DNA of 39,120 nucleotides. Origin: a virus. Position 1 is the first letter of the stretch; every line of letters begins with the position of its first letter. The stretch is from positions 1-39,120 of the IMG/VR virus record IMGVR_UViG_3300024520_000201; one strand, 5' to 3'. The notes beneath the pieces were generated by a model. The model searched no databases. It had not been told where the DNA came from and saw only the letters and a program-made list of their open reading frames with translations. Position numbers and translations under genes: made by a program. Below, in pieces: positions 3,058-19,759 of the stretch.

Positions 3058-3704
3058 TCCTGTGTCGCCCCTTTATCGACTTCATCCAAAATGGCTTGCA
3101 CCCTTCTTGCCCTTTCAGTTGCGTCAATGATGTGTAGGTCTACTGGGGTTGCTTCACCTTCTGGTGTGATTGGTCCTGTGACGGTATGCGCAGTCTTCTC
3201 AACCCAATCAGGACTCAACCGCTTTGCTATTGCCAACCTCACCACGCTTAACGCTTTTGCGTGTGCAACACGAGCAGCACCAAATTGGCTGTCAGGCTTA
3301 ACATCTTCAAGGTCTTCCAACCCCTTGGATGCCATGTGGTCAGCTCGTGCCCTTCTAGCGTGCCACAATAAAGCGTGGAACTCTGCTTCCCTTGCTTCCC
3401 ACCTATAAAGTGTATACACGCTAGGCCAATTCGCCAGCTTACACAATGTGTGTATAGGTACCAGGGTTGTGGCTATAGCAAGAGCTATTTGCTCCCCAAC
3501 CTCTTGTGTGTAGATGGTACGACGTACGCCTGTCCCGGGGGTTGTCTCAAGTGATGGGTCTGCGTCTTCAGGCATGGTGAGCACATCAGGCGCATTGTCA
3601 GGCTCTCTGTGCTCAACGCTTTTTGTTGTAGTGTGCTTCTTGGCAGCACGCTTACGTGTAGCCTTCTTCTTTACGCTTTTTTGCGTTGATTTCTTGGCTG
3701 CCAT
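3054..3704 (-). CDS. terS: Terminase small subunit
   Basis: This 216-residue protein is the probable DNA-recognition subunit of the packaging motor. The N-terminus (about residues 1-30) is very Lys/Ala rich (KKSTQKSVKKKATRKRAAKK), like an H1 histone tail. Residues 65-110 are compatible with a helix-turn-helix (EQIALAIATTLVPIHTLCKL, then SVYTLYRWEAREAEF). The middle and C-terminal helices (ADHMASKGLEDLEDV, VVRLAIAKRLSPDWVEK) look like those of small terminases acting with phage large terminases. It is the first gene of the leftward late arm, directly upstream of terL. No strong Shine-Dalgarno precedes the ATG at 3704, unlike most genes here. The Lys-rich tail is longer than usual and may add nonspecific DNA binding (inference). 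Confidence 0.82.
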   Translation of the reverse strand: MAAKKSTQKSVKKKATRKRAAKKHTTTKSVEHREPDNAPDVLTMPEDADPSLETTPGTGVRRTIYTQEVGEQIALAIATTLVPIHTLCKLANWPSVYTLYRWEAREAEFHALLWHARRARADHMASKGLEDLEDVKPDSQFGAARVAHAKALSVVRLAIAKRLSPDWVEKTAHTVTGPITPEGEATPVDLHIIDATERARRVQAILDEVDKGATQD

Positions 3705-3771
3705 CTATAGGAATTGTTGCCGATCACCCCGGAAGCTTCATCACCTGCCAAGCGCATTTTCAAAACCCCTA

Positions 3772-4083
3772 CTGTTGCACTACTCATTCCCCTTGAGAAT
3801 CAGTCACTTATGGCTATATACATATACGCGACACTCAGAAATGTCTGTTACGTTTGTCAATCGGAGTAGTGTAACACCCCTTTCTTCTTCAACTTCGGGA
3901 CCTTATACGATTCTGAGAGCTGCTGTTACACTACTTTCTCGATTCATGCCGCTTGACCTGGGGAGTCGATGAAATTGGAAAATGTAGTGTAACAGTCTTA
4001 TATGGAAATGGGTCTAAGTACGCGGAATCATTGAGGAAAGTGCTGTTGCACTACTTCAAAGTGCCGTAACAGTGCCGTAACAG
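3772..4083. repeat. Seven-copy 13-bp repeat array (AGTAGTGTAACAG), alternating orientation
   Basis: Forward copies lie at 3865-3877, 3983-3995, 4060-4072 and 4071-4083. Reverse copies (CTGTTRCACTACT) lie at 3772-3784, 3923-3935 and 4043-4055. The last two forward copies are divergent (AGTGCCGTAACAG) and overlap in an 11-bp period. The centres of the second to fifth copies are 58, 60 and 60 bp apart and alternate in direction. The core TGYAACA is kept in the five better copies. A weaker match lies at 3845-3857 in reverse. Such arrays are typical of repressor or activator operators and of replication iterons; which one applies here is not shown. Confidence 0.85.
3793..3820 (+). promoter_or_regulatory. 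Candidate sigma70-like promoter reading rightward
   Basis: TTGAGA at 3793-3798 and TATATA at 3815-3820 are separated by 16 bp. This would read into the repeat array and towards the early genes. The first repeat (3772-3784) lies just upstream and the second (3865-3877) about 45 bp downstream, where a bound protein could block or help it. The match is good but not exact, the spacing is one base under optimal, and the start point is unverified. Confidence 0.4.
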
Positions 4084-4159
4084 TTGCCGACACACACTTT
4101 TCAACCTAGCATTTGGGGCTGTTGTACCATTATAACCCACTAGAAAGGAGAGTTTGATA

Positions 4160-4921
4160 ATGTCTAGCACACACAAAAGTGACACAAAAGCCAGTAGATG
4201 CCCCTGTCAACCACTTGTTATCCACAATTCCGACTGCAACCACTTGACACAGAACAGAGATATGCGTGTCGCGTCAGGGGAGGTGAACAGCTCAGACCCC
4301 TTGGTTGCCCTTCTCTACAGCCTCATGGCAAGTTACGTCACCAGCGGGCAGGTTGAGCGCTTGATGGATGAAGTCAAAACGGACGTAACTGCTTACCACT
4401 TTACCAACGGTTGGCTAGCTGAGCACGCAAAGCACATTGCACAACGGCTCAGGAGTCGTGACACAAATAAGTGGACCTGTCAGAATCCTGTTGACAGTGA
4501 TGGTCAGTGCATCAATGCCGTAGCCCCTACTGACGAGACCTTTGCAGAGGTAGTGACTGACAGGGTATCAGCAAGCGTTGCGGCCACTGCTCAGCAGGTG
4601 AAGGACGCAGCACGATACCGGACGCTTACAGACCCTCTACAGTCTTGGTGTGTGACCTGTACCAAGGTTGGTGGTCAAGCACCTGTCTTGAAGTATGCAA
4701 GCATAGCAGGTGACGGCTCACTGATGGCAGAGTTTGACACCCTTGATGAGCTGACTGATGCATTGGACGTGTGGAGTCAGGTGCCGTTGCCCACCCAATC
4801 AGAAGAGGTAGCCAACCCAACCTGTGGCAATGAGGATTGCAGGCACCTGGTGCAGCACCATAAGCAAGGTGGTGCGTGTGTCAGAACAGGTTGCAACTGC
4901 AAATGCTACATACCCTTCTAA
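4160..4921 (+). CDS. Early protein with C-terminal Cys/His cluster, unknown function
   Basis: First gene of the early arm, 253 residues. ATG 4160 is chosen because AAAGGAG lies at 4144-4150, about 9 bases upstream; the in-frame TTG at 4154 is too close. The N-terminus has a small Cys cluster (CPCQP, residues 14-18). The centre is predicted helical with no family I recognise. The last ~35 residues carry CGNEDCRH, then HH, CVRTGCNCKC and end YIPF, a pattern that probably binds zinc. Small zinc-binding proteins are common among early phage genes that act on host machinery. No specific target can be named. Confidence 0.75.
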   Translation: MSSTHKSDTKASRCPCQPLVIHNSDCNHLTQNRDMRVASGEVNSSDPLVALLYSLMASYVTSGQVERLMDEVKTDVTAYHFTNGWLAEHAKHIAQRLRSRDTNKWTCQNPVDSDGQCINAVAPTDETFAEVVTDRVSASVAATAQQVKDAARYRTLTDPLQSWCVTCTKVGGQAPVLKYASIAGDGSLMAEFDTLDELTDALDVWSQVPLPTQSEEVANPTCGNEDCRHLVQHHKQGGACVRTGCNCKCYIPF

Positions 4922-4939
4922 CACAAAGGAGTGACAACA

Positions 4940-5356
4940 ATGACAGACAATAGATACCCACTGACACCCAGTGAGTACCACGCTGCCACATGGGAGCTGC
5001 TTGACGCTTTCCCTTTGCTGTACCACACCAGCGGATACAGACCTGGTGACGCTGGCAAGCATGGTTGGCGCATGGCAGATGACTACGGCATACCCCTAGC
5101 AGAAGGGACTACCATAAAAGTGTATGACCCTTGGGACGTCGTACGCTATGCACGTGACAAGCTCATGCTTTGGGGTCTGTACCACAACAACAGGGGGTCA
5201 GTCGGCAGACATCTACACTTCCAAGGGTTGCCACCAAGGTGGGAAGGTGTGAAGGGTGAAGTACCAATGTGGTGGATTATCAAGTACGCCCCCCATCGTA
5301 TCCCTGCAACGCTGATTGGCAACGGACCAGCACAGGTCAAGCAAGGTGACGACTGA
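4940..5356 (+). CDS. Hypothetical early protein
   Basis: 138 residues. ATG 4940 is preferred over GTG 4931 because AAAGGAG (4925-4931) sits 8 bases before it. The protein is rich in Trp, Tyr and Pro with no membrane segment or Cys cluster: a globular cytoplasmic protein. Stretches such as YDPWDVVRYARDKLMLWGLY and MWWIIKYAPH look like packed amphipathic elements. I do not recognise a family. Its stop overlaps the next start (TGATG), so the two are probably co-translated. Confidence 0.7.
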   Translation: MTDNRYPLTPSEYHAATWELLDAFPLLYHTSGYRPGDAGKHGWRMADDYGIPLAEGTTIKVYDPWDVVRYARDKLMLWGLYHNNRGSVGRHLHFQGLPPRWEGVKGEVPMWWIIKYAPHRIPATLIGNGPAQVKQGDD

Positions 5357-5841
5357 TGGTTAAACTACTACGTGTTGGTGATGTCGTGCGCTTCAAGGGT
5401 GCTGTCTGCAAGCTCACTGTGCAGCAGTTTGGCTCTAACGCTTTCTTGGGTCATCGTCTGACGCCACAGGCAGGTGACAACAACAATGGTGAGCCTGTCA
5501 CAATGGAAGTACACCCCTTGCAGCTTTCCCACGTGTTGGGTGTTCATGCTATTAGCTGCTGCATGGGTGTGTGTAGTGATAATGCCCGCAACGTATGGTT
5601 GATGGATAAGTTGCGGGCACCACTGTGTACAGCACACTCAGGCGACGGATTGCAGCTACTGTCAATCTCTTGGGAGCACCTAATAAAGTGTACAAGTTGT
5701 GGTACAAGCCAAGTTGGTCCTGGTGAGAAAGATGAAGAGGGTTGGACGCTCTGTTACCTTTGCATGGATAGTGAAGAAGGTTTCAGAACAACAGACAGAC
5801 GTGTACCCCACGCAAGCTATGAGTACAGGCGCAATGACTGA
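5356..5841 (+). CDS. Zinc-binding hypothetical protein
   Basis: 161 residues, starting at an ATG that overlaps the previous stop by one base. The first ~70 residues are beta-rich (VGDVVRFKGAVCKLTV, then EPVTMEVHPLQLSHV), resembling a small SH3-like or OB-like barrel. Two Cys clusters follow: CCMGVC with a later LCTAHS, and a clearer zinc ribbon CTSCG ... LCYLC at about residues 116-140. Function unknown. The barrel-plus-ribbon layout fits a nucleic-acid or protein-binding role, but that is inference. Confidence 0.72.
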   Translation: MVKLLRVGDVVRFKGAVCKLTVQQFGSNAFLGHRLTPQAGDNNNGEPVTMEVHPLQLSHVLGVHAISCCMGVCSDNARNVWLMDKLRAPLCTAHSGDGLQLLSISWEHLIKCTSCGTSQVGPGEKDEEGWTLCYLCMDSEEGFRTTDRRVPHASYEYRRND

Positions 5842-5950
5842 GTACCTGGTACCAATCGCAATCTTGATAAACTCCATATTTGCTGTATTCATTGCAGCAG
5901 GTGGGTGGAGTAACAGAAAGGAGAGTCGTGACCACAGCAAGAAAGGGTAA
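5834..5950 (+). CDS. Small single-pass membrane peptide
   Basis: 38 residues from ATG 5834, overlapping the end of the previous gene by 8 bases, with a weak ACAGG site upstream; ATG 5819 is an alternative giving 43 residues. It is one hydrophobic helix (about residues 4-24, containing VPIAILINSIFAVFIAAGG) followed by a charged cytoplasmic tail rich in Lys, Arg and Asp. It could be a membrane-targeted early effector or a holin-like peptide. Support is the membrane helix, tight packing and overlaps at both ends; there is no family evidence. Confidence 0.55.
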   Translation: MTEYLVPIAILINSIFAVFIAAGGWSNRKESRDHSKKG

Positions 5951-6491
5951 GAAGAACAACAACAGCAACCCAAGAGCGCTGTTTGAAGCTGTACAGCGTG
6001 TTGAGGCTGAGAAGCAGCTTGAAGCAATGCTTGAGCTACGCAACCAGCTGATTGCGTCCAATGCGCGACAGAAGTTGGTGGTTGAGCGTTGGCGCATCTT
6101 GCAACCACGTGTTGAGGCATTCGAGCAGGCACGCATTGCCATGCACCCAGCACGCTTGCAGGACTCAAAGCACTGGTCAAAGAACCACAGCAGCAAGGAT
6201 GAGTGCGGCAACGTACTACACTGGGTATTGCGCTCAGAAGCTGACAAGTACCTTGCTGCACTGAGCGCACAGAACACCATACTAGCTGGCCTATTCACAG
6301 AATTGTGTTGGGCAGAGTTTGACGCCTGCATATCAGGGGAAGAGTGTGGGCATGATGACGTACATGGGTGTATGAAGGCAATAGCTGCCTTTCACCAGCA
6401 CCTAGGGGCGCAGTTGCGTGACGTCAAGATAGAAGACTTGCCGCACTGCCTGCTCAACCAATTGGAGGGTAAGACAGATGGCAACAGTTAG
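5928..6491 (+). CDS. Helical hypothetical protein
   Basis: 187 residues from GTG 5928, chosen because AGAAAGGAG (5915-5923) lies a few bases upstream; frames starting earlier lack a ribosome site. A basic Asn/Lys-rich N-terminus (KGKKNNNSN) leads into a long helical, probably coiled-coil segment (residues ~18-70, ALFEAVQRVEAEKQLEAMLE and on). A Cys/His-containing C-terminal part follows (CGN, ECGHDDVHGC). Function unknown. It overlaps the small membrane gene before it and the membrane protein after it. Confidence 0.72.
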   Translation: MTTARKGKKNNNSNPRALFEAVQRVEAEKQLEAMLELRNQLIASNARQKLVVERWRILQPRVEAFEQARIAMHPARLQDSKHWSKNHSSKDECGNVLHWVLRSEADKYLAALSAQNTILAGLFTELCWAEFDACISGEECGHDDVHGCMKAIAAFHQHLGAQLRDVKIEDLPHCLLNQLEGKTDGNS

Positions 6492-6738
6492 ATGTGTCAG
6501 GGTGCATGGCACCTACTACATTACCAACGCACCAAGGCGGAAACCAGGCATACCCATTGCTATACGTATCGCAGTAGCCTTGGTGCTACTGCTGGTGGGT
6601 GCTGGCTTCATTGCTCCCCTGGTCATACCCCTTGCCATAGAGACCACAGAGTTTCCTCACTTTGACGGACTAACTCTGATTGGTGTCATCATGATAGTCA
6701 GCGGTTGCGTACTGCTGGCCACTAAGGAGCGATACTAG
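6478..6738 (+). CDS. Two-pass membrane protein
   Basis: 86 residues, starting 14 bases inside the previous gene. A short basic N-terminus is followed by two hydrophobic helices, about residues 26-52 (containing IRIAVALVLLLVGAGFIA) and 64-82 (LTLIGVIMIVSGCVLLA), and a short charged end. Topology is probably N-in, C-in. Its place among early genes argues against a late lysis role; a superinfection-exclusion or membrane-remodelling role is possible but not shown. Confidence 0.7.
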   Translation: MATVRCVRVHGTYYITNAPRRKPGIPIAIRIAVALVLLLVGAGFIAPLVIPLAIETTEFPHFDGLTLIGVIMIVSGCVLLATKERY

Positions 6739-7041
6739 ATGGTGCACGTACCAAGACGCTACATATCAACCAGAGGCACGCTTGATGATGAGCTGTTGAA
6801 GGCTTGCCCTGACTGTGGCCACCCCTGGTTAGCTCACCAGACGTTGCAGGCATCAGGCAACAACGCCTCACTGTCACCTTGGCACTGGTGTGAATACAGC
6901 ATGAAGAAGGACGATGCTAACGAGCATGGCAGGGGTGGGACGTTGGCCAAAAGCTGTGGCTGCACCAACACGTTGGACGCGCTACGTGCTGCCAACGTCT
7001 GGGTAACGGCACCAGTCGAGAGTGAGCCACACAATGCCTAA
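6739..7041 (+). CDS. Small zinc-binding protein
   Basis: 100 residues, starting directly at the base after the previous stop. CPDCGHPWLAH at residues ~23-33 and a later WHWCEY ... SCGC at ~53-75 form a four-Cys, two-His set like that at the C-terminus of the first early gene (4160). The spacing suggests one zinc site built from separated halves. I do not recognise a named family. Probably a cytoplasmic regulator or adaptor (inference). Confidence 0.7.
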   Translation: MVHVPRRYISTRGTLDDELLKACPDCGHPWLAHQTLQASGNNASLSPWHWCEYSMKKDDANEHGRGGTLAKSCGCTNTLDALRAANVWVTAPVESEPHNA

Positions 7042-7435
7042 CACAGACAGTATGGGCAGGGTCATACGTGACACACAAGGTGACCGCTTTAGAGAGATGG
7101 GGCAGCGTCACCAGCTGCGTCAAGAGATGCTTGGACAGCACAGAAAAGAGTTAGGTATTGTCCTTCACTGCCAAGGGACTGACGAGCTGCCACCCCGGGG
7201 TGATGAGTTCTATTCTGCGATGATGCTGACCATTGACGATGAAGAGCAAGACTACCTGATTTCAAGACCACTGACGGTCAGAGGTCCTTGGGTGGTCACC
7301 AACTGCACAGGCACGCTGTACGGTATATTCCCTGAAGAGCTGCAAGCATCTGATTTCATTGACGAAGCTGTAGAGCAGGCAGGCATTACAGAAGGGGTTG
7401 AAGGGTGGGGGTGCTGCCGTATAGTCACGAGGTAA
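7034..7435 (+). CDS. Hypothetical protein
   Basis: 133 residues from ATG 7034, overlapping the previous gene by 8 bases; GTG 7022 would add four residues. The N-terminal ~45 residues are charged and helical (RDTQGDRFREMGQRHQLRQE). The rest is mixed alpha/beta (AMMLTIDDEEQDYLISRPL, GTLYGIFPEELQASDFIDEA) and ends near two adjacent Cys. No membrane segment. Function unknown. Confidence 0.65.
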   Translation: MPNTDSMGRVIRDTQGDRFREMGQRHQLRQEMLGQHRKELGIVLHCQGTDELPPRGDEFYSAMMLTIDDEEQDYLISRPLTVRGPWVVTNCTGTLYGIFPEELQASDFIDEAVEQAGITEGVEGWGCCRIVTR

Positions 7436-7475
7436 CAACCAGAAAGAAGAAAGATAGAAAGGAGAGTTAGACACA

Positions 7476-7916
7476 ATGATGAGTCTAAGCAACGGTCAGC
7501 TGTTTGCAATAGCTGAATGCGTTTCCAAAGATAGCAGTATGAGTGTGCCTGACTTTATCAAGTCAGGGCAGGGTGTAACCCTCAAGCGTCTTCAGAGGTA
7601 CTTGAATACGTTTGAACCAGCTTTTCTACTGGGGTCAGTTGAGAAGCATGGTGGTGATGACAATGAGTTGTTTCAAGAGTTGCAGCAGTACATGGTCAAT
7701 GCTGGTGTTGATGTACCTGATGAAGATGACAGGTCAGCTGCCATGAAGAACAGTGAAGCAGAGCACAAGCTACATGATGTTGTGTCTAAGCTTCCCAAGA
7801 AGAAGGCAGCCAAGAAGAAGGCAGCCAAGAAGAAAGGAGCAACGCGACGGGTTTTCAAGAAAGGTGAAGGCAAACGCCCTGACCTGCATTCTAGAAGTTG
7901 GCCAGAACCTTGGTGA
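7476..7916 (+). CDS. Protein with H1-like Lys/Ala tail
   Basis: 146 residues. ATG 7476 is preceded by AGAAAGGAGAG; ATG 7479 is equally possible. The first ~105 residues are helical and acidic (QLFAIAECVSKDSS, LQRYLNTFEPAFLLGS, DVPDEDD). From about residue 107 comes a Lys/Ala repeat tail (PKKKAAKKKAAKKKGATRR) like a bacterial H1-type histone, then a short basic end. It most likely binds DNA through the tail. The same tail type is found in the small terminase, the SSB-like protein and the protein at 13311. Confidence 0.72.
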   Translation: MMSLSNGQLFAIAECVSKDSSMSVPDFIKSGQGVTLKRLQRYLNTFEPAFLLGSVEKHGGDDNELFQELQQYMVNAGVDVPDEDDRSAAMKNSEAEHKLHDVVSKLPKKKAAKKKAAKKKGATRRVFKKGEGKRPDLHSRSWPEPW

Positions 7917-7946
7917 TAATAGAAAGAAGAAAGGAGAAACAAAACT

Positions 7947-8372
7947 GTGTTTAGCCATATGTCCAAAAAGATGTTTGAAGAACTGATGCTACGTGACCCT
8001 GACAACTATGGGACACCTGAGCCTGCACAAGGTGTACACTGTGAAGGGTTGTACGACAAACCAGGACCGATGACCGAGCTGCTTGGCTTGACCCTTCAAT
8101 GCTTGAAGAGTGATGAGACCAAAGGTGTGCTTGACAAGGTACCTACAGATGTGTGGATGAGGGCTACACAGATGTGTATAGCTGAGATGCTGTATTGGTG
8201 CTACCATTGGCACAAGCTGAAGGAAGCAGTTGACAGTGACTTGATTGAGGCTAGTAGGCTTTGCCCACGTTGCACGTACTCGCACCCCAGCTTGAAGGAA
8301 GACAGAGAATGCCTTGAGCGCTGTGAAGGTGTGGAAGACGAGGTCAGGGAAGAAGCGCTCAGAGGTACGTGA
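7947..8372 (+). CDS. Hypothetical protein with Cys pair
   Basis: 141 residues from GTG 7947, with AAAGGAG about 10 bases upstream (7930-7936); ATG 7959 is an alternative. It is helical, with MTELLGLTLQCLKSDET and AEMLYWCYHWHKLKEAV, then a CPRC pair (about residue 108) and two more Cys (REC, ERC) within 20 residues: a possible zinc site. The C-terminus is strongly acidic. Its overall shape resembles small phage proteins of unknown function. Confidence 0.65.
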   Translation: MFSHMSKKMFEELMLRDPDNYGTPEPAQGVHCEGLYDKPGPMTELLGLTLQCLKSDETKGVLDKVPTDVWMRATQMCIAEMLYWCYHWHKLKEAVDSDLIEASRLCPRCTYSHPSLKEDRECLERCEGVEDEVREEALRGT

Positions 8373-8386
8373 AAGGAGAAAGTGTC

Positions 8387-8725
8387 ATGACTGGTGTTGG
8401 ACGTGTGTATGTGCCTGTGATGCCTAGTCGGGTGAACTGTGCGCCTGCACTGGTCTTTGGGAAGGTGGTAGGACCCTTTGTCAGTCAGGGTGACGTGCAG
8501 CACCTGGGTGTGCTGCCTGCTCGCCCTGTGCTGGCAAAGCTGCGTCATGGTCTTGCCGACTTCACTGAAAACGATTGGCTGCTATTGCTGGGTGACCCTG
8601 TGCTGATAGCAGCAGCAACACTTTACGCGGTAGAGCACTTGCCGCACAACATAGCCTTGAAGGTTCTGAAGTGGGACCGACAAGAGAAAGTGTATTTGGA
8701 GGTACAGCTAGATGAGTTCCCCTAA
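8387..8725 (+). CDS. Hypothetical protein
   Basis: 112 residues from ATG 8387, with AAAGGAG (8373-8379) at normal spacing; the upstream GTG 8369 would place the ribosome site inside the gene. The protein starts with beta-like segments (GRVYVPVMPSRVNCAPALVF) and then a helical part (WLLLLGDPVLIAAATLYAVE) that is hydrophobic but probably not membrane-spanning, because it is followed by charged amphipathic sequence. Its end overlaps the next gene by 14 bases. No family recognised. Confidence 0.62.
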   Translation: MTGVGRVYVPVMPSRVNCAPALVFGKVVGPFVSQGDVQHLGVLPARPVLAKLRHGLADFTENDWLLLLGDPVLIAAATLYAVEHLPHNIALKVLKWDRQEKVYLEVQLDEFP

Positions 8726-9236
8726 GAAGGAAGAAGTACCAGGACTGAAAGAGCTGTCAGCTTTTGCTGCTGAGATGGATGAGCTTGAAGAGTCCATAGC
8801 AGTGACGGAAGCCAAGCTCAAAGAGCAACAAGCCAACCTGCTGAAGTTGATGACTGAGACCATACCTGAATTCATGGATGAAATTGAAATCGGGAAGGTG
8901 CAGCTCAAAGATGGTAGGTGGTGTGCTGTCTCACCCCTGTGTAGGGGACACATCAATGAAGACAACAAGGCCAAGGCTTTTGCTTGGCTACGGAAGCACA
9001 AGGAAGCTGACATCATCAAGACAACCCTAGCTGTTGACATGGGAAAGGACGTCACACTGGGTGCTACCAAGAAACAAGTCAAAGCCCTTCAGAAGCTTGG
9101 CTATACCTGCACTGCCAAGCAGGGTGTGCATGGTTCCACACTCAACAGGTGGGTCAGGGAGCGTATTGAAGGGGGACTGAAGATTGATAAGGACCTTTTT
9201 GGTGTATGGGAAGGACAGAAAGCAACCATCAAATAG
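8712..9236 (+). CDS. Coiled-coil protein of the replication module
   Basis: 174 residues. ATG 8712 has GGAGG about 9 bases upstream and overlaps the previous gene. Residues ~12-50 form a strong coiled coil (FAAEMDELEESIAVTEAKLK). The rest is a compact alpha/beta region with KVQLKDGRWCAVSPL, AFAWLRKHKEADIIKT and LNRWVRERIEGG. I have an impression of similar ~170-residue proteins beside ssDNA-binding genes in other phages, but cannot name a family. Its place just before the SSB-like gene suggests a DNA replication or recombination accessory. Confidence 0.68.
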   Translation: MSSPKKEEVPGLKELSAFAAEMDELEESIAVTEAKLKEQQANLLKLMTETIPEFMDEIEIGKVQLKDGRWCAVSPLCRGHINEDNKAKAFAWLRKHKEADIIKTTLAVDMGKDVTLGATKKQVKALQKLGYTCTAKQGVHGSTLNRWVRERIEGGLKIDKDLFGVWEGQKATIK

Positions 9237-9287
9237 AGGTCACCTACCACCTCAACACAACAAAGAGTAGGAAAGGAGTAACACAGC

Positions 9288-10226
9288 ATGGCAGCACGTA
9301 AGAAGAAGGCAGCAAGCAAGAAGAAGGCAGCGTCAAGGCGACGCCCTTCAACACAGCAAGAAGAGATGGCAGTAGCTACACAGCAAAGTGACATGGTGGT
9401 TGCTGAAGATATCGACGCAGCAATGCTTGAAGACATTGGGTCAGGGCATGAAGAGGTCAGCGGGGAAGACCTTGCAACACCCTTCCTGAACATCTTGCAG
9501 GCACAGTCACCCCAGTGCATGAAGGGCAGTGATGAGTACATTGACGGAGCTGAGCAGGGCTGCTTCATGGATAGCGTCAGCGAGCATGTGTATGATGGTG
9601 AAGAGGGTATCTTGGTTGTGCCCTGTCACTTCCAATCAAGGTGGATTGAATGGATTGGGCGCAAGCATGGTGGTGGTTTCGTCAGACAGTTTGACGTTGG
9701 CGAGCGTCCGTCAGGTACCAGACGTGGTGACATCTCTCTGTGTATTGATGATGAAGGGCAGATCTGGCATGGTGACCCAAAGGAAACACCAAGGCAGTAT
9801 GTCAGGACGCACCTTCAGTACCTGCTGCTTGTCAACTCTGACACACAGCTGATACGCCCTGTGATCTTCAGCGTGAAGAGCACTGGACTGACACCATCAT
9901 CCAAGTGGAATAGCAGTCTGCGTCAGATGGTGGTACCTGGTAAGGGTACACTTCCCCGTTTCAATAGCCTGTGGATGCTGTACAGCAAGTATCGCGACAA
10001 TGACCAAGGGTCCTGGTACAGCTTCCAAGTAGAGGTGGAGCGGCCACTACAACCCAGCACACAGCAGTGGGACGCTCAGGTGTATGCTGCTGCTCGTGAG
10101 TTCAAAGCAGCCGTTGTTGAGTCACGTGTGCAAGCCAACTTTGACCAGTCACGTGCTACGGAAGCTGCTGACACTGGTCAGGGTCAGGATAGCCAAGGGG
10201 GGCTGGACGAGGAAACACCCTTCTAG
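9288..10226 (+). CDS. Putative ssDNA-binding protein with acidic tail
   Basis: 312 residues, ATG 9288 after AAAGGAG. The N-terminus is a Lys/Arg/Ala tail (AARKKKAASKKKAASRRR, residues 2-19). A beta-rich central domain follows, with FLNILQAQSP, EEGILVVPCHFQSRWIEWIG, PVIFSVKSTGLTPSSKWNS and WYSFQVEVERPLQP. The end is acidic and disordered, finishing DEETPF. A C-terminal acidic tail closing in Pro-Phe is the hallmark of SSB proteins, where it recruits polymerase, primase and nucleases. Together with its place before the primase, an SSB function is the best inference. The central fold is not one I can align to classic OB SSBs. Confidence 0.62.
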   Translation: MAARKKKAASKKKAASRRRPSTQQEEMAVATQQSDMVVAEDIDAAMLEDIGSGHEEVSGEDLATPFLNILQAQSPQCMKGSDEYIDGAEQGCFMDSVSEHVYDGEEGILVVPCHFQSRWIEWIGRKHGGGFVRQFDVGERPSGTRRGDISLCIDDEGQIWHGDPKETPRQYVRTHLQYLLLVNSDTQLIRPVIFSVKSTGLTPSSKWNSSLRQMVVPGKGTLPRFNSLWMLYSKYRDNDQGSWYSFQVEVERPLQPSTQQWDAQVYAAAREFKAAVVESRVQANFDQSRATEAADTGQGQDSQGGLDEETPF

Positions 10227-10246
10227 GGTTCACATCACTGTGTAAG

Positions 10247-10299
10247 GAAGCAGGGCAGGGGTTTTATTACTGGGGGGTATGGGGTCCCTGCCCTGCTTC
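10247..10299 (+). promoter_or_regulatory. 14-bp hairpin with G-tract loop before the primase
   Basis: Arms GAAGCAGGGCAGGG (10247-10260) and CCCTGCCCTGCTTC (10286-10299) are perfect complements around a 25-nt loop that itself holds runs of six and four G. There is no T-run after it, so it is not a classic terminator. It lies between the SSB-like gene and the primase start and would hide an upstream ATG at 10279. Another six-G run (10305-10310) follows just before the GTG start. Translational control or partial attenuation is plausible, not shown. Confidence 0.75.
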
Positions 10300-10314
10300 A
10301 CCTTGGGGGGCGTA

Positions 10315-11838
10315 GTGAGCAGGAAGAAGGCAGACACAGCAGAGCATATGTGTGAGCTATTCGCTGGTTACATGGAAGCGTATGGTATATATGAAATAGA
10401 TGAGAGCACCAGGCGCAGCTCTGATGGTAAGGTCAAGGGTCAGGCGCGTACAGTACGTGACACAGTCACAGAGCTTCTATGGAAGCAGCACCTAGCAGGT
10501 GAGCTACCTATAGGCATCATCACCATCAATGAAGAAGACCAATGCCATTGGGGTTGTATAGATGTCGATGACTATTCAGTTGACCACAAGAAACTGTGTC
10601 AACTCATTAAAGCGTTAAAACTTCCTTTGACGGTTTGCAGGACCAAGAGTGGTGGCGCACACTGCTATGTGTTCTTCAAAGAACCTGTACCAGCATGGTT
10701 GGTGCAACAGAAGCTGACCAATTGGTCAGCAGTGCTTGGTCATGGGGGTAGTGAGATATTCCCCAAGCAGACAACCGTTGACCTTGAAGCTGATGACCTG
10801 GGTAGCTGGGTGAACATGCCCTACTACGACGCTGACAATACAATGCGTTATGCCTATGACTCTCAAGGCAACGCAATGGATGCTGAGCTATTCTTGAAAA
10901 AGGCTATACGTCTTGACCATGCAACCTTTGAGCACACTGAGCCAAAGAAGCTAGCCAAGGCACCCGCAAAGGATGATGACTTTCACGACGGTCCAGTGTG
11001 CTTTGAGATCATAACTACACAAGGGAAGGTATCTAGCGGCAAACGCAACAATGCTCTTGTATCCATAGCTGTGTACTGCAAGAAGAAGTGGCCAGACGAT
11101 TGGGCACAACACGTACACAGAATGAATACAGAGTATCTGCAACCACCTCTGCCTGCTGGTGAGGTTGGTGACATCATCAAGCATTGCAGCAGAAAAGACT
11201 ACTTTTATCTGTGTAAGCAAGAGCCGTTGCTGTCCCACTGCAACGGCTCACTGTGCAGGACTAGACCCTATGGGGTGGGTGATGGGGAAGACAAAACCAG
11301 CGTTGTCATCAGTGAGCTACGCAAACTTGATACAGACCCACCCATCTGGTATATGGACATCACTGATACAGGCACTGTATCCCTGACAACTGACCAGCTT
11401 GCTAGTGCAGCACTTTTCAAGAAAGCCTGCATGGAGCAATTGACAATATTTCCTGTAGTCAATGCCAAGCAATGGCAGACCCTGCTGGTTGATGTAATGG
11501 ACAGGGTTGTCTTGGTTGAGATCTCAGAAGAAGAGAAAGAGCACTCTGGTGTAGTGGGTGAGTTCTATCAGCACCTGGTTGACTTCTTCCAACGCGCTCA
11601 TGGTGAAGATGAAGAAGAGCTGTTACTCAGAAAAGTGTGGAAGCACAAGGGTCGCTTGATATTCCGTCTGCAAGACTTAATGGAACACCTAGCAACCAGA
11701 CGATTCAGCAAGTACACCAGACCAATGATATGTCAAGAGCTGAAGAGGTTTGGTGCCAAGATGGAAACACCTAAGCGTGTCAAGGGTGTAGTCACTCGCA
11801 CTTGGTCTATCCAAGACAATTGGGAGCAAACAGAATGA
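10315..11838 (+). CDS. Archaeo-eukaryotic-type primase (AEP)
   Basis: 507 residues from GTG 10315, just after a six-G run; ATG 10279 would start inside a hairpin and adds an odd leader. It makes RNA or DNA primers for the phage polymerase. Residues ~76-90 hold the metal-binding DVD pair (CIDVDDY), and ~112-120 the SGGAHCYVF histidine motif, with GSEIFPKQ shortly after: the AEP signature. Residues ~240-330 look like a PriCT-type C-terminal domain (KRNNALVSIAVYCKKKW, PPLPAGEV) followed by YFYLC ... HCNGSLC, a likely zinc site. A helical C-terminal part of ~170 residues follows. No helicase motif is fused; the helicase is the next gene (ATGA overlap). Confidence 0.85.
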   Translation: MSRKKADTAEHMCELFAGYMEAYGIYEIDESTRRSSDGKVKGQARTVRDTVTELLWKQHLAGELPIGIITINEEDQCHWGCIDVDDYSVDHKKLCQLIKALKLPLTVCRTKSGGAHCYVFFKEPVPAWLVQQKLTNWSAVLGHGGSEIFPKQTTVDLEADDLGSWVNMPYYDADNTMRYAYDSQGNAMDAELFLKKAIRLDHATFEHTEPKKLAKAPAKDDDFHDGPVCFEIITTQGKVSSGKRNNALVSIAVYCKKKWPDDWAQHVHRMNTEYLQPPLPAGEVGDIIKHCSRKDYFYLCKQEPLLSHCNGSLCRTRPYGVGDGEDKTSVVISELRKLDTDPPIWYMDITDTGTVSLTTDQLASAALFKKACMEQLTIFPVVNAKQWQTLLVDVMDRVVLVEISEEEKEHSGVVGEFYQHLVDFFQRAHGEDEEELLLRKVWKHKGRLIFRLQDLMEHLATRRFSKYTRPMICQELKRFGAKMETPKRVKGVVTRTWSIQDNWEQTE

Positions 11839-13262
11839 CCACCCAGGTGCACACCATCTATGGCCCACCTGGTACAGGCAAGACGCAACGCCTACTCACT
11901 CTTGTGCAGGATGAAACAACCAACAACACCAGCGGTCAGCACGTTGGCTACTTTGCCTTCACCAAGGCAGCAAGCAGAGAAGCCAAGGCACGCACCCACC
12001 TGACGCAAGCACCCTACTTCAGAACACTACACAGTTTATGCTTTGAAATGCTCGGCATGAATCGCAAGAGGGTACTTGGCAGCAGAGCACAGTACCAATT
12101 CCTTGAATCCTACGGTATACCCCTAAACATGACAGGTGAAAATACCGTAGGCACTGCCCGCACTCTCATGTACCACTATGACCAGTCACGTATACGTGGT
12201 CTGTCCATTGATGACTACTTCAACAGGACCAACCCACGTGACATAGAGTCGTGTGAGGTAGCTGTATTTGCTCGCATCTATAACAAATTTAAGTTGCAGC
12301 TAGGGTTGGTTGACTTCACTGACTTGCTACTCAACTATGTGAAGGACGCCAAGCGCTACTCAACCCCTGATCTTGACGTCATCTTTGTTGACGAAGCACA
12401 AGACCTATCACGCTTACAGTGGCAAGTGTTGGATAAGGTGCTGCACTTTGGTAGGGTGAAGCGTGCATACATAGCTGGTGATGATGACCAAGCTATCTAT
12501 GCGTGGGCAGGTGCAGACGCTGACAGCTTCACATCTCTCCCCGGGACAAGTGAGCTGTTGCAGCAGTCGCACAGGGTCCCAAAGGCAATGCACGCTGTAG
12601 CCAATCGCATCATACGTCAGGTGAAGCTACGCAAGCAGAAGCTGTGGCTACCTGTTGACAAGGAAGGTGCTGTCAAGATTGTGTCAAGCATTGAAGACAT
12701 TGACTTCAGCAAGGGTGAGTGGTTGGTACTGGCTAGGGAAAATAAAACACTTTGGTCAGCTCACCTGCACCTTGAGCGTGAAGGCATCCTGTACCGCAAC
12801 GACACCACACCAGTGCTGCCCCTTGGCACGCTTGAGGCTATTGAGGCATGGAAGCGTATACAGCAAGGACACCCCATCAGGGGTGACAGGCGACAGGTGC
12901 AGCTGTTGCAGACCAGGAAAATGCAGAAGGACCTGGTGAGCGCTCCCACCATGCCTGATTGGCCTACTGCCTTTGACAGGTTGACAGAAGCCAACGTAAC
13001 ATACCTACGTGTTGCAATACGTAAGGGGGAAGACACAGCGTACCCACGTGTGAGGCTGAGCAGCATACATGCAAGCAAGGGTGCTCAATGTGACAATGTT
13101 GTTGTGTATGAGCGGTTGGGGTATGGGTCAGCAATACATGAGATGTACACAGATGTGTCAGATACCCTTCATCGACTGTTCTACGTAGCAGTCACAAGAG
13201 CGGTCAAGAATTTATACATAGTGGATGCTCATGGCGAGCAGTTTCACTACCCAATAGTGTGA
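11835..13262 (+). CDS. SF1 (UvrD/Rep/Dda-type) DNA helicase
   Basis: 475 residues from ATG 11835, overlapping the primase stop. Motifs are complete and in order: I GPPGTGKT (10-17), Ia (FAFTKAASREA), II VIFVDEAQD (182-190), III AGDDDQAIYAWAGAD (214-228), IV SHRVPKAMH, V SSIHASKGA, VI FYVAVTRA near the end. It is a compact SF1A translocase, shorter than UvrD, close in size to T4 Dda. In this genome it is the best candidate for replicative or fork helicase, as no DnaB-like gene is present. A helper role alongside a host helicase is also possible. Confidence 0.92.
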   Translation: MTTQVHTIYGPPGTGKTQRLLTLVQDETTNNTSGQHVGYFAFTKAASREAKARTHLTQAPYFRTLHSLCFEMLGMNRKRVLGSRAQYQFLESYGIPLNMTGENTVGTARTLMYHYDQSRIRGLSIDDYFNRTNPRDIESCEVAVFARIYNKFKLQLGLVDFTDLLLNYVKDAKRYSTPDLDVIFVDEAQDLSRLQWQVLDKVLHFGRVKRAYIAGDDDQAIYAWAGADADSFTSLPGTSELLQQSHRVPKAMHAVANRIIRQVKLRKQKLWLPVDKEGAVKIVSSIEDIDFSKGEWLVLARENKTLWSAHLHLEREGILYRNDTTPVLPLGTLEAIEAWKRIQQGHPIRGDRRQVQLLQTRKMQKDLVSAPTMPDWPTAFDRLTEANVTYLRVAIRKGEDTAYPRVRLSSIHASKGAQCDNVVVYERLGYGSAIHEMYTDVSDTLHRLFYVAVTRAVKNLYIVDAHGEQFHYPIV

Positions 13263-13265
13263 CCA

Positions 13266-13298
13266 ATTGGGCAGGGTCACACTAATTCAAAGCCCAAT
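13266..13298 (+). other. Short intergenic inverted repeat
   Basis: ATTGGGC (13266-13272) and GCCCAAT (13292-13298) can pair around a 19-nt loop just after the helicase stop and before the H1-like gene. There is no T-run. A similar ATTGGG ... CCCAAT pair follows the last early gene at about 21395-21416. It may be a weak mRNA-end or processing hairpin; chance is not excluded. Confidence 0.35.
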
Positions 13299-13310
13299 GA
13301 GGTGTACCAA

Positions 13311-13814
13311 ATGAGTGAAGAGTCAACCTCTGCAACTGAGCAGACTGCTGAGCAGACTGCCAACGCTGCCAAGCAGAAGGCAGCAGCTGACACCAAGAAG
13401 AAGGCACCTGCCAAGAAGAAGGCACCTGCCAAGAAGGCAGCAGCTGACACACAAAAGACGTCAGCAAAGGCAGCCAAGAAGAAGGCACCTGCCAAGAAGA
13501 AGGCACCTGCCAAGAAGAAGGCACCTGCCAAGAAGAAGGCACCTGCCAAGAAGAAGGCACCTGCCAAGACCACCAGACGCGCTACTGGTCTGCATGGGTT
13601 GGATTGGGACCGTACCTTCATCACTGAGGTGGGTGAGAACACCAAGCGCAAAGGCTCAAAGGCACACGAGCTGCACGCACTATACAAGAAAGGGCGTAGC
13701 ATTGACCAGCTGCTTGAAGGTGGTTTCTCTCCTGGTGACATCATCGCTGACCTTGCTTCTGGTATGATTGAGATCAAACGTGTGTATCCTGGTGATGCAC
13801 CAAACAAAGCCTAG
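13311..13814 (+). CDS. H1-histone-like Lys/Ala/Pro protein
   Basis: 167 residues from ATG 13311, with TGAGGT about 7 bases upstream. The first ~90 residues are low complexity: Ala/Lys/Thr, then KKKAPA repeated seven times (two, then five tandem). This matches the C-terminal tails of histone H1 and bacterial HctB/AlgP-type proteins. The last ~75 residues are a separate small globular domain (GLHGLDWDRTFITEVGEN, AHELHALYKKGRSIDQLLEG, FSPGDIIADLASG). It probably binds and compacts DNA, or sits on replicating DNA, since it lies between helicase and polymerase genes. The gene ends at a hairpin terminator. Confidence 0.8.
   Translation: MSEESTSATEQTAEQTANAAKQKAAADTKKKAPAKKKAPAKKAAADTQKTSAKAAKKKAPAKKKAPAKKKAPAKKKAPAKKKAPAKTTRRATGLHGLDWDRTFITEVGENTKRKGSKAHELHALYKKGRSIDQLLEGGFSPGDIIADLASGMIEIKRVYPGDAPNKA
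13395..13565 (+). repeat. 18-bp coding minisatellite (KKKAPA)
   Basis: An 18-bp unit, AAGAAGAAGGCACCTGCC, encodes KKKAPA. It occurs twice in tandem at 13395-13430 and five times at 13476-13565, nearly identical at DNA level including third codon positions. The near-perfect identity points to recent expansion by slippage or recombination, so copy number is likely to differ between related phages. Confidence 0.9.
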
Positions 13815-13820
13815 AAGCTG

Positions 13821-13861
13821 AGAGCCGTACACCCTTGTATGTTAGGGGTGTACGGCTCTTT
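13821..13861 (+). terminator. Hairpin terminator after the H1-like gene
   Basis: AGAGCCGTACACCC (13821-13834) pairs with GGGTGTACGGCTCT (13846-13859), a 14-bp perfect stem with an 11-nt loop, followed by only three T residues. The short T-run suggests partial termination, which would lower expression of the polymerase block relative to the upstream genes. The next gene starts 13 bases past the stem. Confidence 0.75.
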
Positions 13862-13873
13862 GGGGGTCAACCT

Positions 13874-14197
13874 ATGTCCGTACTCTTTCATACGCTTTTT
13901 GGTGTGTGCTTTGCCTTGTGGGCAACCAAGTACATGCGCAACAGAAGCAAGCTCATTGGTCAGCTGCAAGCGTCAACTGAGCTGATACAGAAGACAAGTG
14001 CAGCACTGACAATGAAAACAGCGTCAATGCTGAAGTGCGTTGAAGCTGTTGACGTGCTGACCAAGACCAATGACGTACTCTTCAAAGTGTTAGCAGATAA
14101 CCCAGCAATGTTGCTTACAGCTGAAGAGCGTGTACAGCAAGCATTGGAAGAAAGGAGCAACCAAGGTGAGCAGGCACAACCTATTCAAGAAGCTTGA
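13874..14197 (+). CDS. Membrane-anchored coiled-coil protein
   Basis: 107 residues from ATG 13874, with a GGGGGT site 8 bases upstream; the longer frame from 13835 would include the terminator stem. One N-terminal hydrophobic helix (residues ~2-18, VLFHTLFGVCFALWATKY) is followed by basic residues, then a long helix rich in Thr/Ala/Leu (LIGQLQASTELIQKTSAALT) likely to form a coiled coil. It might tether replication to the membrane (inference only). The C-terminus overlaps the next gene by 32 bases. Confidence 0.65.
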   Translation: MSVLFHTLFGVCFALWATKYMRNRSKLIGQLQASTELIQKTSAALTMKTASMLKCVEAVDVLTKTNDVLFKVLADNPAMLLTAEERVQQALEERSNQGEQAQPIQEA

Positions 14198-14744
14198 CGC
14201 TGTCTTCATTGGTGGTGATGTACAACGCTGGCACAACAGGCGATACATGCAGGCACAGTCCGTAGCTCATCACAGCTGGCGCGTTGCTCAGATTGCAACG
14301 TACCTATACGACAGCAGCGTGCTTGATATACCATCAAATGTGTTGCTTGCTGCGCTTGACCATGACGTTGCAGAAGCTTGGACAGGTGACATCTCAGCAC
14401 CTGTCAAGAGTGCTGCCCCTAACATACGTGACCATGTTGAGCTACTGGCAACTGACTGGTTGCTGAGCAAGGGTCTGAGGGAAGACTACGCACTGACTGA
14501 CACAGAGAAGCTGTTCATACACTTGTGTGACAAGTTGGAAGCAATGCACTACTGCTGTGACATGCTCGCGCAAGGTAACCCCGGAGGTACCGTACCCTTC
14601 TGGGTTGTGAACAGCGTTGTTGAAGGCATTCTGCTCAGTGACCATGCACAAGGTGCTGAGTGGTTGGATAGAGCACAGGGCTTGGTGCAAGACCTTCAAT
14701 ACCACTGGTCACACTTTCTTCATGGTGAGTCACCACTGTCATGA
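14166..14744 (+). CDS. HD-domain phosphohydrolase (5'-deoxynucleotidase-like)
   Basis: 192 residues from GTG 14166, with AAAGGAG at 14152-14158. HHSWRVAQIA (35-44), LDHDVAEAWTGDI (64-76) and a later FIHLCDKLEA give the HD metal-binding pattern of the YfbR family, which removes phosphate from deoxynucleoside monophosphates. In a phage it would tune nucleotide pools during replication. It is next to the DNA polymerase (ATGA overlap). Substrate is not determinable here; other HD hydrolases cannot be fully excluded. Confidence 0.82.
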   Translation: MSRHNLFKKLDAVFIGGDVQRWHNRRYMQAQSVAHHSWRVAQIATYLYDSSVLDIPSNVLLAALDHDVAEAWTGDISAPVKSAAPNIRDHVELLATDWLLSKGLREDYALTDTEKLFIHLCDKLEAMHYCCDMLAQGNPGGTVPFWVVNSVVEGILLSDHAQGAEWLDRAQGLVQDLQYHWSHFLHGESPLS

Positions 14745-16651
14745 CAGCACAGCAACCACTACTGATGACAGCAACACCTGACACTAGCAAGTGGTTGCCA
14801 CCTGTCAGCTTTCCGCGACTGTGGGAAGCCAAGTCAGTCACCATTGATACTGAGACAAGGGACCCCAGGTTAGATACCTGGGGTCCTGCTTGGCACAAGA
14901 AAGAGTCAGACGCCTATATGGTGGGTGTGTCTGTTGAAGCTGACGGTTGGGTAGGTTACTACCCCCTTGCTCATGCCAACGGCAACAACATGGATAACAA
15001 AATTGTGTTACGTTGGTTGAGCAAGGTGCTCAAAGCTGACAACGAGAAAGTGTTTCACAATGCAAGCTATGATCTGGGGTGGTTGTCGCACAGTGGTCTA
15101 ACACAGATTGGTGGTACCATCTTTGACACAGCAGCAGCTGCACCACTGCTTGACGAGCACAGGCTTTCGTACTCCCTTGAGAACCTCTGCCAAGACTTCT
15201 TAGGACAGGGTAAGGTTGAGACGTGGCTACAGCAGCGTGCAAGAGAGCTTGGACTAGACCCCAAAGCAGACCTATGGCAGCTGCCACCACAGGACGTTGG
15301 CATGTACGCTGAAGGTGATGTCATACAGACACGAGCATTGGCTGAGCACTTGCGGCCACTGCTAGCAGAGCAAAACCTGACAGACCTTATGTCACTTGAG
15401 TGTAGGCTTATCCCTGGTCTGGTACGTACCAGGTTGAAAGGGGTGTGTGTAGATGTTGAAGCAGCTGAGCGCTTACGCCTGAAGCTTGGCAAAGATGCTG
15501 AGAAGCTTGCTCATGAACACAGAAAAGAGTTTGGCAAGTACACCAACCCTAACAGCAATGTTGAGATTGCTGCTGTCTGTCATCGCCTAGGTATCAGCCA
15601 CCCTTACACAAAAGAAGGTAATCCAAGCTTCGTCAAAGAGTGGCTAGAATCGCACAAGCACCCACTTTTCAAGTCAATACGCATGATGCGCCAGCTAGCA
15701 ACTATGCGTGGTCTGCTGAAGAGCATTGTATATGATTACAACTATAATGGTCGTATTCATTGCAGTCTGAACCAGCTGCGTGGTGACAAGGAAGGAAGCA
15801 TAAAGGGAACTGTGTCAGGCAGGTTCAGCAGCAGTCACCCCAACCTGCAACAGGTACCAGAGCGTGACCCCTTCTGGGGTCCGTTGTTCCGGTCACTCTT
15901 CATACCATCCAAGGGCAAGCGTTGGATTAGCGCTGACTATGCTGAGCAAGAGTACAGGCTCATTGTACACTTTGCGTTGTTGCTGCGCTTACCAGGTGCA
16001 AAGGAAGCAGCAGCAGCATATAGGGTAGCTGGTGCAAGCTTCCACCAGATGGTTGCTGACCTGCTTGGCAGACCAAAGGAAAGGAAACTGTGTAAGCAGC
16101 TCAACTTTGGTATGGCCTATGGTATGGGTGAAGGGTTGCTAGCTGCTAGCCTCGCTTTGACGCTTGAGGCAGCAAGACCACTGCTGACACTTTATCATGA
16201 TAAAGCACCCTTCATCAGAGATTTACGTGATGCCTGTAGCAACAGAGCTGAAGCAGCTGGGTACGTACACACAATATTGAAGAGACGTTGTCGCTTCCCA
16301 CTGTGGGAGCGTCGCACCTATGGCAAGGGTCAAGATGAAGTGTATGAGGCACCACTACCAAGGGAAGAAGCGCTCAAGAAGTGGGGCAACAGGGTCAGAC
16401 GAGCATGGTTACACAAAGCTATGAATAGGGTGATACAGGGTGGTGGTGCTGACATCACCAAGGCAAGCATGGCAGCGTGCTATGACGCCGGTATTGACCC
16501 ACTGCTGCAAGTGCATGATGAGCTTGACTTTGAGAGTGATAGCCCTGATGAATCAGACAAGGTCAAGGAAATCATGCAGGACACTGTACCCACTGACCCA
16601 CACATGGTGGTGGATGTAGGTATTGGTGACAATTGGGCGGAAGCTCACTAG
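14741..16651 (+). CDS. polA: DNA polymerase family A with 3'-5' exonuclease
   Basis: 636 residues. The exonuclease domain is intact: DTETRD (36-41), FHNASYDLGWL (105-115), YAEGDV (189-194). The polymerase domain has motif A SADYAEQEYRL (397-407, Asp399 and Glu404), motif B RKLCKQLNFGMAYG (448-461, with Arg448, Lys452, Phe456, Tyr460) and motif C VHDE (591-594). The residue matching E. coli Phe762 is Phe (456), not the Leu or Tyr seen in many marine phages. No 5'-nuclease domain. This is the replicative polymerase of the phage. It overlaps the nucleotidase gene before it. Confidence 0.97.
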   Translation: MTAQQPLLMTATPDTSKWLPPVSFPRLWEAKSVTIDTETRDPRLDTWGPAWHKKESDAYMVGVSVEADGWVGYYPLAHANGNNMDNKIVLRWLSKVLKADNEKVFHNASYDLGWLSHSGLTQIGGTIFDTAAAAPLLDEHRLSYSLENLCQDFLGQGKVETWLQQRARELGLDPKADLWQLPPQDVGMYAEGDVIQTRALAEHLRPLLAEQNLTDLMSLECRLIPGLVRTRLKGVCVDVEAAERLRLKLGKDAEKLAHEHRKEFGKYTNPNSNVEIAAVCHRLGISHPYTKEGNPSFVKEWLESHKHPLFKSIRMMRQLATMRGLLKSIVYDYNYNGRIHCSLNQLRGDKEGSIKGTVSGRFSSSHPNLQQVPERDPFWGPLFRSLFIPSKGKRWISADYAEQEYRLIVHFALLLRLPGAKEAAAAYRVAGASFHQMVADLLGRPKERKLCKQLNFGMAYGMGEGLLAASLALTLEAARPLLTLYHDKAPFIRDLRDACSNRAEAAGYVHTILKRRCRFPLWERRTYGKGQDEVYEAPLPREEALKKWGNRVRRAWLHKAMNRVIQGGGADITKASMAACYDAGIDPLLQVHDELDFESDSPDESDKVKEIMQDTVPTDPHMVVDVGIGDNWAEAH

Positions 16652-16664
16652 AAGGGGGAGCGTG

Positions 16665-17147
16665 GTGAAGTCAGAGAAAGATGCCTATCGACTGCTGAAG
16701 GAACACTTTTCAGGTATGTTCGCTGTACACCATACAAGGTTGGAGAATTGGGCAGGTACTGGTGTGCCTGACGTCAATTGGTGTTTCAGTGTACAGGGTG
16801 AAGGTGTTGAGGTCTGGACTGAGTTGAAGTTTATGAAGGGCTTTCAGTTCCGGTCAGAGTTGAAGGCAGCTCAGGCTATATGGTTGCGCAACCGTTGGCT
16901 TGCTGGTGGTCGTGCGTACCTGCTTGCTGTCCAACCACCTAACACATTTCTGTTGTGGGAGGGTCACAAGGCATCAAGGCTACGTGATGCTGACTCCCCT
17001 TTGAACGTGCCAACCGATGGCGTATACACAGGAGAGTATGCAGAGCTTGCGTTGGATATGCTCAACCACCAACCCCCTATAGTGCATCGTATCAGCATTG
17101 ACAGCTCAGCAGACAGCAAAGCTGAAACACTGTTCTGGGTAAGCTGA
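16665..17147 (+). CDS. VRR-NUC-like nuclease
   Basis: 160 residues from GTG 16665 with AGGGGGAG just upstream; GTG 16662 is an alternative. It shows the short PD-(D/E)XK layout of VRR-NUC proteins: GTGVPDVNW (31-39), then VEVWTELKF (48-56, Glu53-x-Lys55), then a Gln/Trp helix (AAQAIWLRNRWLAGG). Such nucleases cut branched or recombination DNA and often sit beside SNF2 helicases in phages, as here (next gene, 1-base overlap). A Holliday-junction or flap-processing role is likely; the exact substrate is unknown. Confidence 0.8.
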   Translation: MKSEKDAYRLLKEHFSGMFAVHHTRLENWAGTGVPDVNWCFSVQGEGVEVWTELKFMKGFQFRSELKAAQAIWLRNRWLAGGRAYLLAVQPPNTFLLWEGHKASRLRDADSPLNVPTDGVYTGEYAELALDMLNHQPPIVHRISIDSSADSKAETLFWVS

Positions 17148-18613: not shown

Positions 18614-18930
18614 GGTGCCATGAGTGTGAAACCCAGATGACTAAGAAATACAGGCGACCACGCAGTTTCAAGTGGGTCTGCCCTGCCTGTGGTTGGTACT
18701 TTCCTGAGTGGGGTCTATTCCTTGACCCTGTACCATTCAAGAGAAGAGGTCTGCCACCAAGACCACCCCTACCTGCTCCACCTAGGCCCCTGTCCACACG
18801 TGATGGACAGCTGCCACCAGGACCACCCAACCACCTGGTGCGCTCACCTGGTACGCCTGGTGCGCTCCTGGTGGTCCTGGGGCCGCTCCTGGGTGCTGTG
18901 GTTGGCTTCCTGCTTGGGTACCTGCTCTAG
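18610..18930 (+). CDS. Zinc ribbon with Pro-rich linker and C-terminal membrane anchor
   Basis: 106 residues, ATGA overlap with the helicase. CHEC (3-6) and CPAC (24-27) form a zinc ribbon; a long Pro/Arg/Gly linker follows (RGLPPRPPLPAPPRP and on); the last ~25 residues are a hydrophobic helix (ALLVVLGPLLGAVVGFLLGYLL). The protein would sit tail-anchored in the inner membrane with a cytoplasmic zinc ribbon. I do not know a family with this layout. It ends at a hairpin terminator. Confidence 0.72.
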   Translation: MRCHECETQMTKKYRRPRSFKWVCPACGWYFPEWGLFLDPVPFKRRGLPPRPPLPAPPRPLSTRDGQLPPGPPNHLVRSPGTPGALLVVLGPLLGAVVGFLLGYLL

Positions 18931-18931
18931 C

Positions 18932-18961
18932 CCTGCAACCCCCTGCCATTGCAGGCGTTTT
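18932..18961 (+). terminator. Hairpin terminator closing the replication block
   Basis: CCTGCAA (18932-18938) pairs with TTGCAGG (18949-18955) with a 10-nt loop, then CGTTTTGC. The stem begins within the first bases after the stop of the membrane zinc-ribbon gene. It is followed by a good promoter at 18980, which together suggest a transcription unit boundary. Confidence 0.6.
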
Positions 18962-18979
18962 GCTATCTATACGCAATAG

Positions 18980-19008
18980 TTGATACGGCTCTATATAGTC
19001 GGTACAAT
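18980..19008 (+). promoter_or_regulatory. Sigma70-like promoter for the second small-gene block
   Basis: TTGATA at 18980-18985, exactly 17 bp, then TACAAT at 19003-19008: five of six consensus bases in each box at optimal spacing. Transcription would begin near 19015, about 50 bases before the ATG at 19065, in an otherwise AT-rich gap of 134 bases. This would give the block at 19065-21395 its own expression. Confidence 0.72.
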
Positions 19009-19064
19009 TTGGTTTGGTTGTGTTTAGTTCTTTAACAGTTTCATTGAGAAAGGGGGTTGCAGGG

Positions 19065-19754: not shown

Positions 19755-19759
19755 CCAGT

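Follow-up and report, generated by a model that had tools for sequence, protein, structure and literature searches.

In satellite phage P4, the alpha protein, an AEP primase protein, acts on short iterons at ori and crr, and in plasmid RSF1010 the RepB′ primase starts at specific sites in oriV, one per strand. The origins of PICIs have a candidate melting site flanked by two sets of short iterons, are tied to a primase/initiator and lie directly on the 3′ side of the gene for that initiator; the origin of EcCICFT073 has been shown to drive plasmid replication (PMC6092414). The NrS-1 PrimPol recognises and starts at TTTGGTTA, which has a GGTTA core (PMC8718748) and is present in two copies in the NrS-1 genome, one per strand, as the proposed origin (PMC8718748, PMC7102993).

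Here, we analysed the virus record IMGVR_UViG_3300024520_000201, the whole of which (39,120 bp) is called the window below. Judged from sequence, an array of short repeats at its early/late junction is likely, at a probability of roughly 0.6, to be the phage replication origin or its core, the iterons being used by the primase and the replisome. Like the PICI pri-rep-ori, the window has short iterons, a possible if weak melting site and a tie to a primase, but the PICI initiator is a primase-helicase fusion, whereas the window encodes a primase without a fused helicase and its array stands 6.2 kb off, at the early/late junction. NrS-1 likewise pairs an AEP enzyme with a short motif, and the core of TTTGGTTA is similar to that of the window repeats; the window core, however, is TGTTRC in 8–9 copies, the window primase has no DUF5906 helicase part, and a motif search did not find TTTGGTTA in the window. 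In its predicted fold, the window primase matches RepB′, but RSF1010, unlike the window, has separate RepC iterons and two ssi hairpins. Lambda O and plasmid Rep origins are, as in our reading, built of repeated initiator sites, but their iterons are longer and mostly direct and their initiators lack primase activity.

Genome organization of the window

The contig ends (positions 1–145 and 38975–39120) share a 145-bp overlap that differs at two positions, representing two population variants, and a portal/MuF-type gene region runs across their joint. The genome therefore closes on itself, and is complete and either circular or permuted. Its late arm lies on the minus strand and is led by the gene for the terminase small subunit TerS (Sf6_terminase, PF20901; 3054–3704), followed by terL, while the early/replication arm (4160–21395) is on the plus strand. 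The intergenic region between them (3705–4159, 455 bp) exceeds every other non-coding stretch of the genome in length and is its one divergent gap according to the ORF map and gap list; it contains the array, and the start points of both arms must lie within it or be read through by it. GC skew turns at the array, where gene direction turns too. In relatives whose genes all lie on a single strand the skew is monotonic or flat, with no turn at the arrays, and we discarded it there as an uninformative origin test.

The only convergent gap (21396–21615, 220 bp) probably is the terminator region for both arms and holds several near-copies of GGCGCTCAGA-like decamers. Within the early arm, the gene at 13302–13814, with a DNA repeat of ~18 bp, encodes a Lys/Ala/Pro-rich product with tandem KKKAPAK repeats that resembles a histone H1 tail. 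A nucleotide search of phage records returned no close relatives of the window, nor did the viral contigs searched contain one, and the product of the first early gene (4160–4921), the gp34-like protein and the family A DNA polymerase (PolA) had no or merely distant matches in viral contigs.

Iterons between the two arms

At up to one mismatch, AGTAGTGTAACAG occurs five times in the 39,120 bp, every time inside 3705–4159, where base composition predicts 0.045 matches genome-wide. These copies are AGTAGTGCAACAG (3772–3784, minus strand), AGTAGTGTAACAC (3865–3877, plus), the sole exact copy AGTAGTGTAACAG (3923–3935, minus), TGTAGTGTAACAG (3983–3995, plus) and AGTAGTGCAACAG again (4043–4055, minus). 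An earlier note on this DNA had counted seven copies of the 13-mer between the two arms; the location in the divergent gap holds for all of them, the number only for these five, as the two at 4060 and 4071 differ at three positions. It had passed over a partial iteron, ACAAACGTAACAG (3845–3857, minus), with the core CGTAACAG at 3845–3852. Match positions bear out its description of four copies from 3865 to 4055 that strictly alternate in orientation, with centres (3871 to 4049) at steps of 58, 60 and 60 bp, and of the last two copies as an exact 11-bp tandem (TGCCGTAACAG, 4060–4083, plus), a form usual in related arrays. That a step of about 60 bp is not expected of random sites was also borne out: when five sites were placed at random in simulations, such regular spacing in four consecutive sites had a P of ~0.001, and of 0.00015 when alternation was added.

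With three mismatches allowed the 13-mer is at background (19 found genome-wide against 17.3 expected), which makes the core rather than the 13-mer the meaningful unit. Accordingly, the tandem copies, which have only (C)GTAACAG / CGTAACAG in common with it, count because of their place and exact 11-bp tandem and not because of likeness to the 13-mer. The core GYAACA, a form of GNAAC that reads TGTTRC on the other strand, occurs nine times in the 455-bp gap, where 0.9 copies are expected, so that clustered copies of a short motif occur in non-coding DNA beyond chance, as in iteron origins. Among short stretches of the gap, TATATACATATA at 3815–3826 has the highest AT content and is a possible unwinding element, if a weak one (AT 0.60 over 60 bp, a modest value).

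The regular alternating spacing and the position exactly at the start of both operons would also suit an operator array, on which a phage or host transcription factor would set the early/late switch of the divergent operons, possibly by looping. A scan of 3600–4300 for sigma-70 promoters alone found none, over the sites or elsewhere in this interval, and no regulator was recognised among the early genes of the window, in agreement with the earlier note, which had seen no gene for a known repressor.

The primase and genes conserved with it

The AEP primase of the window (PF22548-like; 10279–11838, plus strand) is present in every array phage compared. It contains the AEP catalytic domain (PF22548, E 1e-13), matches the CAPP sequence profile (E 4e-13) and has a weak PriCT_1 match at residues 249–302 (E 0.05), as a possible helical-bundle (HBD/PriCT) domain of the NrS-1 type, in a part for which a medium-quality model gives helices (240–305); a domain search found no DUF5906 helicase part. 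This AlphaFold2 model, built from 17 aligned relatives (pLDDT 75, pTM 0.48), was matched by Foldseek to CAPP Prim-Pol (E 2e-11), to the RSF1010 RepB′ primase (3h20, E 2.6e-4) and more weakly to NrS-1 N300 (E 0.02). Relatives of the primase numbered 25 among 50,697 phage records and at least 80 among viral contigs; bacterial and archaeal genome contigs gave no match.

The early genes, TerS and TerL of the window were compared with 15 genomes of phages encoding such primases. The common set comprises the Pam3 gp34-like protein (9288–10226), the primase, a UvrD-type helicase (11835–13262), PolA (14741–16651) and an SNF2-type (phrog_62) helicase (17147–18613), all encoded on the plus strand in the window. 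No repressor or regulator and no TerS is common to the array phages of this comparison, and the shared part other than TerS is therefore replication machinery. The small zinc or HTH-like proteins that had been put forward as binders are not common to the other array phages either.

Arrays in relatives chosen by their primase

Relatives were chosen solely for primase homology, and their non-coding gaps were scanned for repeats. Clustered copies of ACGTAACC lie at the terS/early junction of L079, L016 and L019, and of GTAGCGGT at that of L039 and L040. Clear AT tracts are present in L039, L040 and L079, and GTAGCGGT arrays stand on both sides of the tract in L039 (1077–1193) and L040 (1007–1120). 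Directly upstream of the primase gene, the 8-bp iteron GAGCAACC is repeated in Acinetobacter phage SH-Ab 15497 (L096), GGTAACA in JeffCo (L102), TGGAACG in PSA28, VLCpiS6a, PMBT28 and K21lambda1, and TGGAACC in Kokobel2. All of these arrays share GNAAC except those of L039 and L040, which deviate from it. No clear GNAAC array was detected in the primase relatives L095, L098, L101 and L105; upstream of its terS, L101 (phage 023Pt_psg01) has AGCGAGC repeated in steps of 4 bp (15363–15586), possibly a different iteron type.

A second array is present elsewhere in SH-Ab 15497, PSA28, VLCpiS6a and Kokobel2, and in each of them both arrays are at operon starts. The two of SH-Ab 15497, before the primase gene (20850–21075) and before terS (42990–43260), consist of the same GAGCAACC and recall P4 ori plus crr, where iterons also lie in two places, a likeness of layout alone. 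Two arrays in one-strand relatives, each at an operon start (20.9 kb and 43.0–43.2 kb in SH-Ab 15497), are what an operator array would lead one to expect. No regulator gene is common to the array phages in the 15-genome comparison, however, and regulation alone leaves unexplained both the tie to AEP primases and PrimPols and the location of arrays 3′ of PrimPol genes described below. We therefore regard an operator array as unlikely, although an operator function could exist alongside an origin.

Arrays found by motif in viral contigs

Threefold CGTAACC and threefold GTAACAG each had at least 120 matches in viral contigs where ~2 are expected (an estimate for uniform base composition), counts that are not independent since many of the matches are related fragments. 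Among the matches listed, 103 of CGTAACC and 57 of GTAACAG lie outside long ORFs. Tandem periods of 8–11 bp dominate in these 160 related arrays, and an inverted GTTAC occurs within 200 bp in 111 of the 160, compared with a fraction of 0.18 expected from random pieces. No exact window-type array was found in viral contigs. The wrapping or looping of DNA at 60-bp steps that had been suggested is thus not supported as a feature of such arrays in general, since the relatives have 8–11-bp tandems and inverted copies, and the 60-bp step, real in the window, is probably specific to its lineage. A lack of the motif or its spacing in related genomes, which the earlier note had named as grounds for refutation, has a mixed outcome: the core and its placement do recur, while the exact 13-mer and its spacing are absent elsewhere. 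We found no description of these arrays in the literature.

Whole records were then searched for primases, again among the matches listed. The window-family primase was encoded in 9 of the 48 CGTAACC records with a strong and in one with a weak match, and in 2 of 49 GTAACAG records. PF19263, the PrimPol helicase domain, was found in 19 of the 48 and 19 of the 49, respectively (16 of the latter over the curated cut-off), and ties the arrays to a primase subfamily other than that of the window. Some of the 48 CGTAACC records have the pattern in coding repeats, which would solely dilute the association. Altogether, ~49 of the 97 array records listed encode a window-type AEP primase or an NrS-1-like PrimPol, compared with 1 of 49 control records with the same pattern inside a coding ORF (window-family primase 0/49, PF19263 1/49); many of the array records with neither primase, about half of the total, are fragments. 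The CGTAACC-class records of ~20 kb or more (L119, L147, L165, L175, L180, L202 and L215) have a window-type primase, with the exception of L120 (19.2 kb), which may be a fragment. Beside their CGTAACC arrays, 25 marine contigs (L113, L117, L120 and ~22 others) have a gene for a small cysteine-rich protein (DYYNxSKPK...KRKCFRCGKEK).

At 14 loci among the matches listed, the array lies immediately 3′ of a PrimPol gene, at a median distance of 55 bp. These array-adjacent PrimPols carry DUF5906 with PriCT-2 or the NrS-1 HBD, the latter in one protein. Iterons directly 3′ of pri-rep, as in PICIs, are thus found at the 14 PrimPol loci and not in the window, where the 6.2 kb between array and primase gene also means that the iterons are not beside the gene of the proposed initiator. 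The PrimPol loci bear on the idea that the origin is opened by DnaA or a comparable host initiator, or by a different phage protein such as the gp34-like protein or a helicase, and that the primase is only recruited. The gp34-like protein and the helicases are conserved as widely as the primase, and the only DnaA-box consensus of the genome, TTATCCACA, is at 4218–4226, 135 bp from the array. A single box is at chance level genome-wide (1.4 expected), though, and was rejected as an origin signal, and iterons beside PrimPol genes in phages with a GC content of 0.3–0.7 argue for a phage-encoded binder, which leaves this alternative very improbable.

The commonest neighbour of the CGTAACC arrays is terS, within 500 bp of 63 of the 103 listed. 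TerS wraps DNA on repeated sites in other phages, and the array could in principle be a pac site where TerS binds the repeats and packaging starts, which predicts the same neighbourhood. In the window, terS, the first gene of the late arm, starts 68 bp from the array, and the genome closes on itself as that of a permuted headful phage would. The site does not co-vary with the TerS family, however. Phage L247 shares the window motif (GTGTAACAG), has GGTGTAACAG iterons beside terS and encodes a primase 38% identical to that of the window (E 2e-116), whereas its TerS has no similarity to the window TerS. Arrays also stand beside primase genes with terS elsewhere (L096, L097, L099 and L100) and, as noted, 3′ of PrimPol genes. 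TerS was set aside as the binder despite its adjacency because it is not conserved with the iteron, and we hold a pac site to be quite improbable.

A proposed replication origin

The tie between GNAAC arrays and AEP primases or PrimPols is reciprocal, being found both when relatives are chosen by primase and when arrays are chosen by motif. Since the window repeats belong to a widespread class tied to phage AEP primases, an origin is their most likely function, rather than a simple gene switch. The earlier note had left the choice between an early/late switch and a replication origin open, and the recurrence of the core in distant phages, whose genes in common with the window are mainly those of replication, together with the enrichment of AEP primases and PrimPols favours the origin.

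We infer that the array is an origin, bound by the primase, at which melting and priming take place. Replication proteins of the phage itself, most likely the AEP primase, would recognise the GYAACA-core iterons that the early/late junction carries on its two strands, and the primase would assemble at the array. It would prime both strands at the point of opening, and the phage helicases and PolA would then take over. The alternating orientation of the copies fits the priming of both strands.

Conclusions

A tentative extension, to which we give less than even odds, is that phage AEP primases of different families, stand-alone and NrS-1-like enzymes alike, have a recognition code in common, the GNAAC (GTTNC) iteron. 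With the same reserve, the primases of virulent phages and the PrimPols of prophages and satellites may start replication at arrays with the same core. To our knowledge, hardly any environmental phage has a known replication origin, and a shared GNAAC code would make origins readable straight from sequence in very many uncultured phages. Should GNAAC arrays prove to be the cis sites on which AEP primases act, origins would be predictable from sequence for many phages, marine ones among them, a large and biochemically unstudied primase family would gain testable substrates, and the template motif of the NrS-1 PrimPol would be connected with natural origin arrays.
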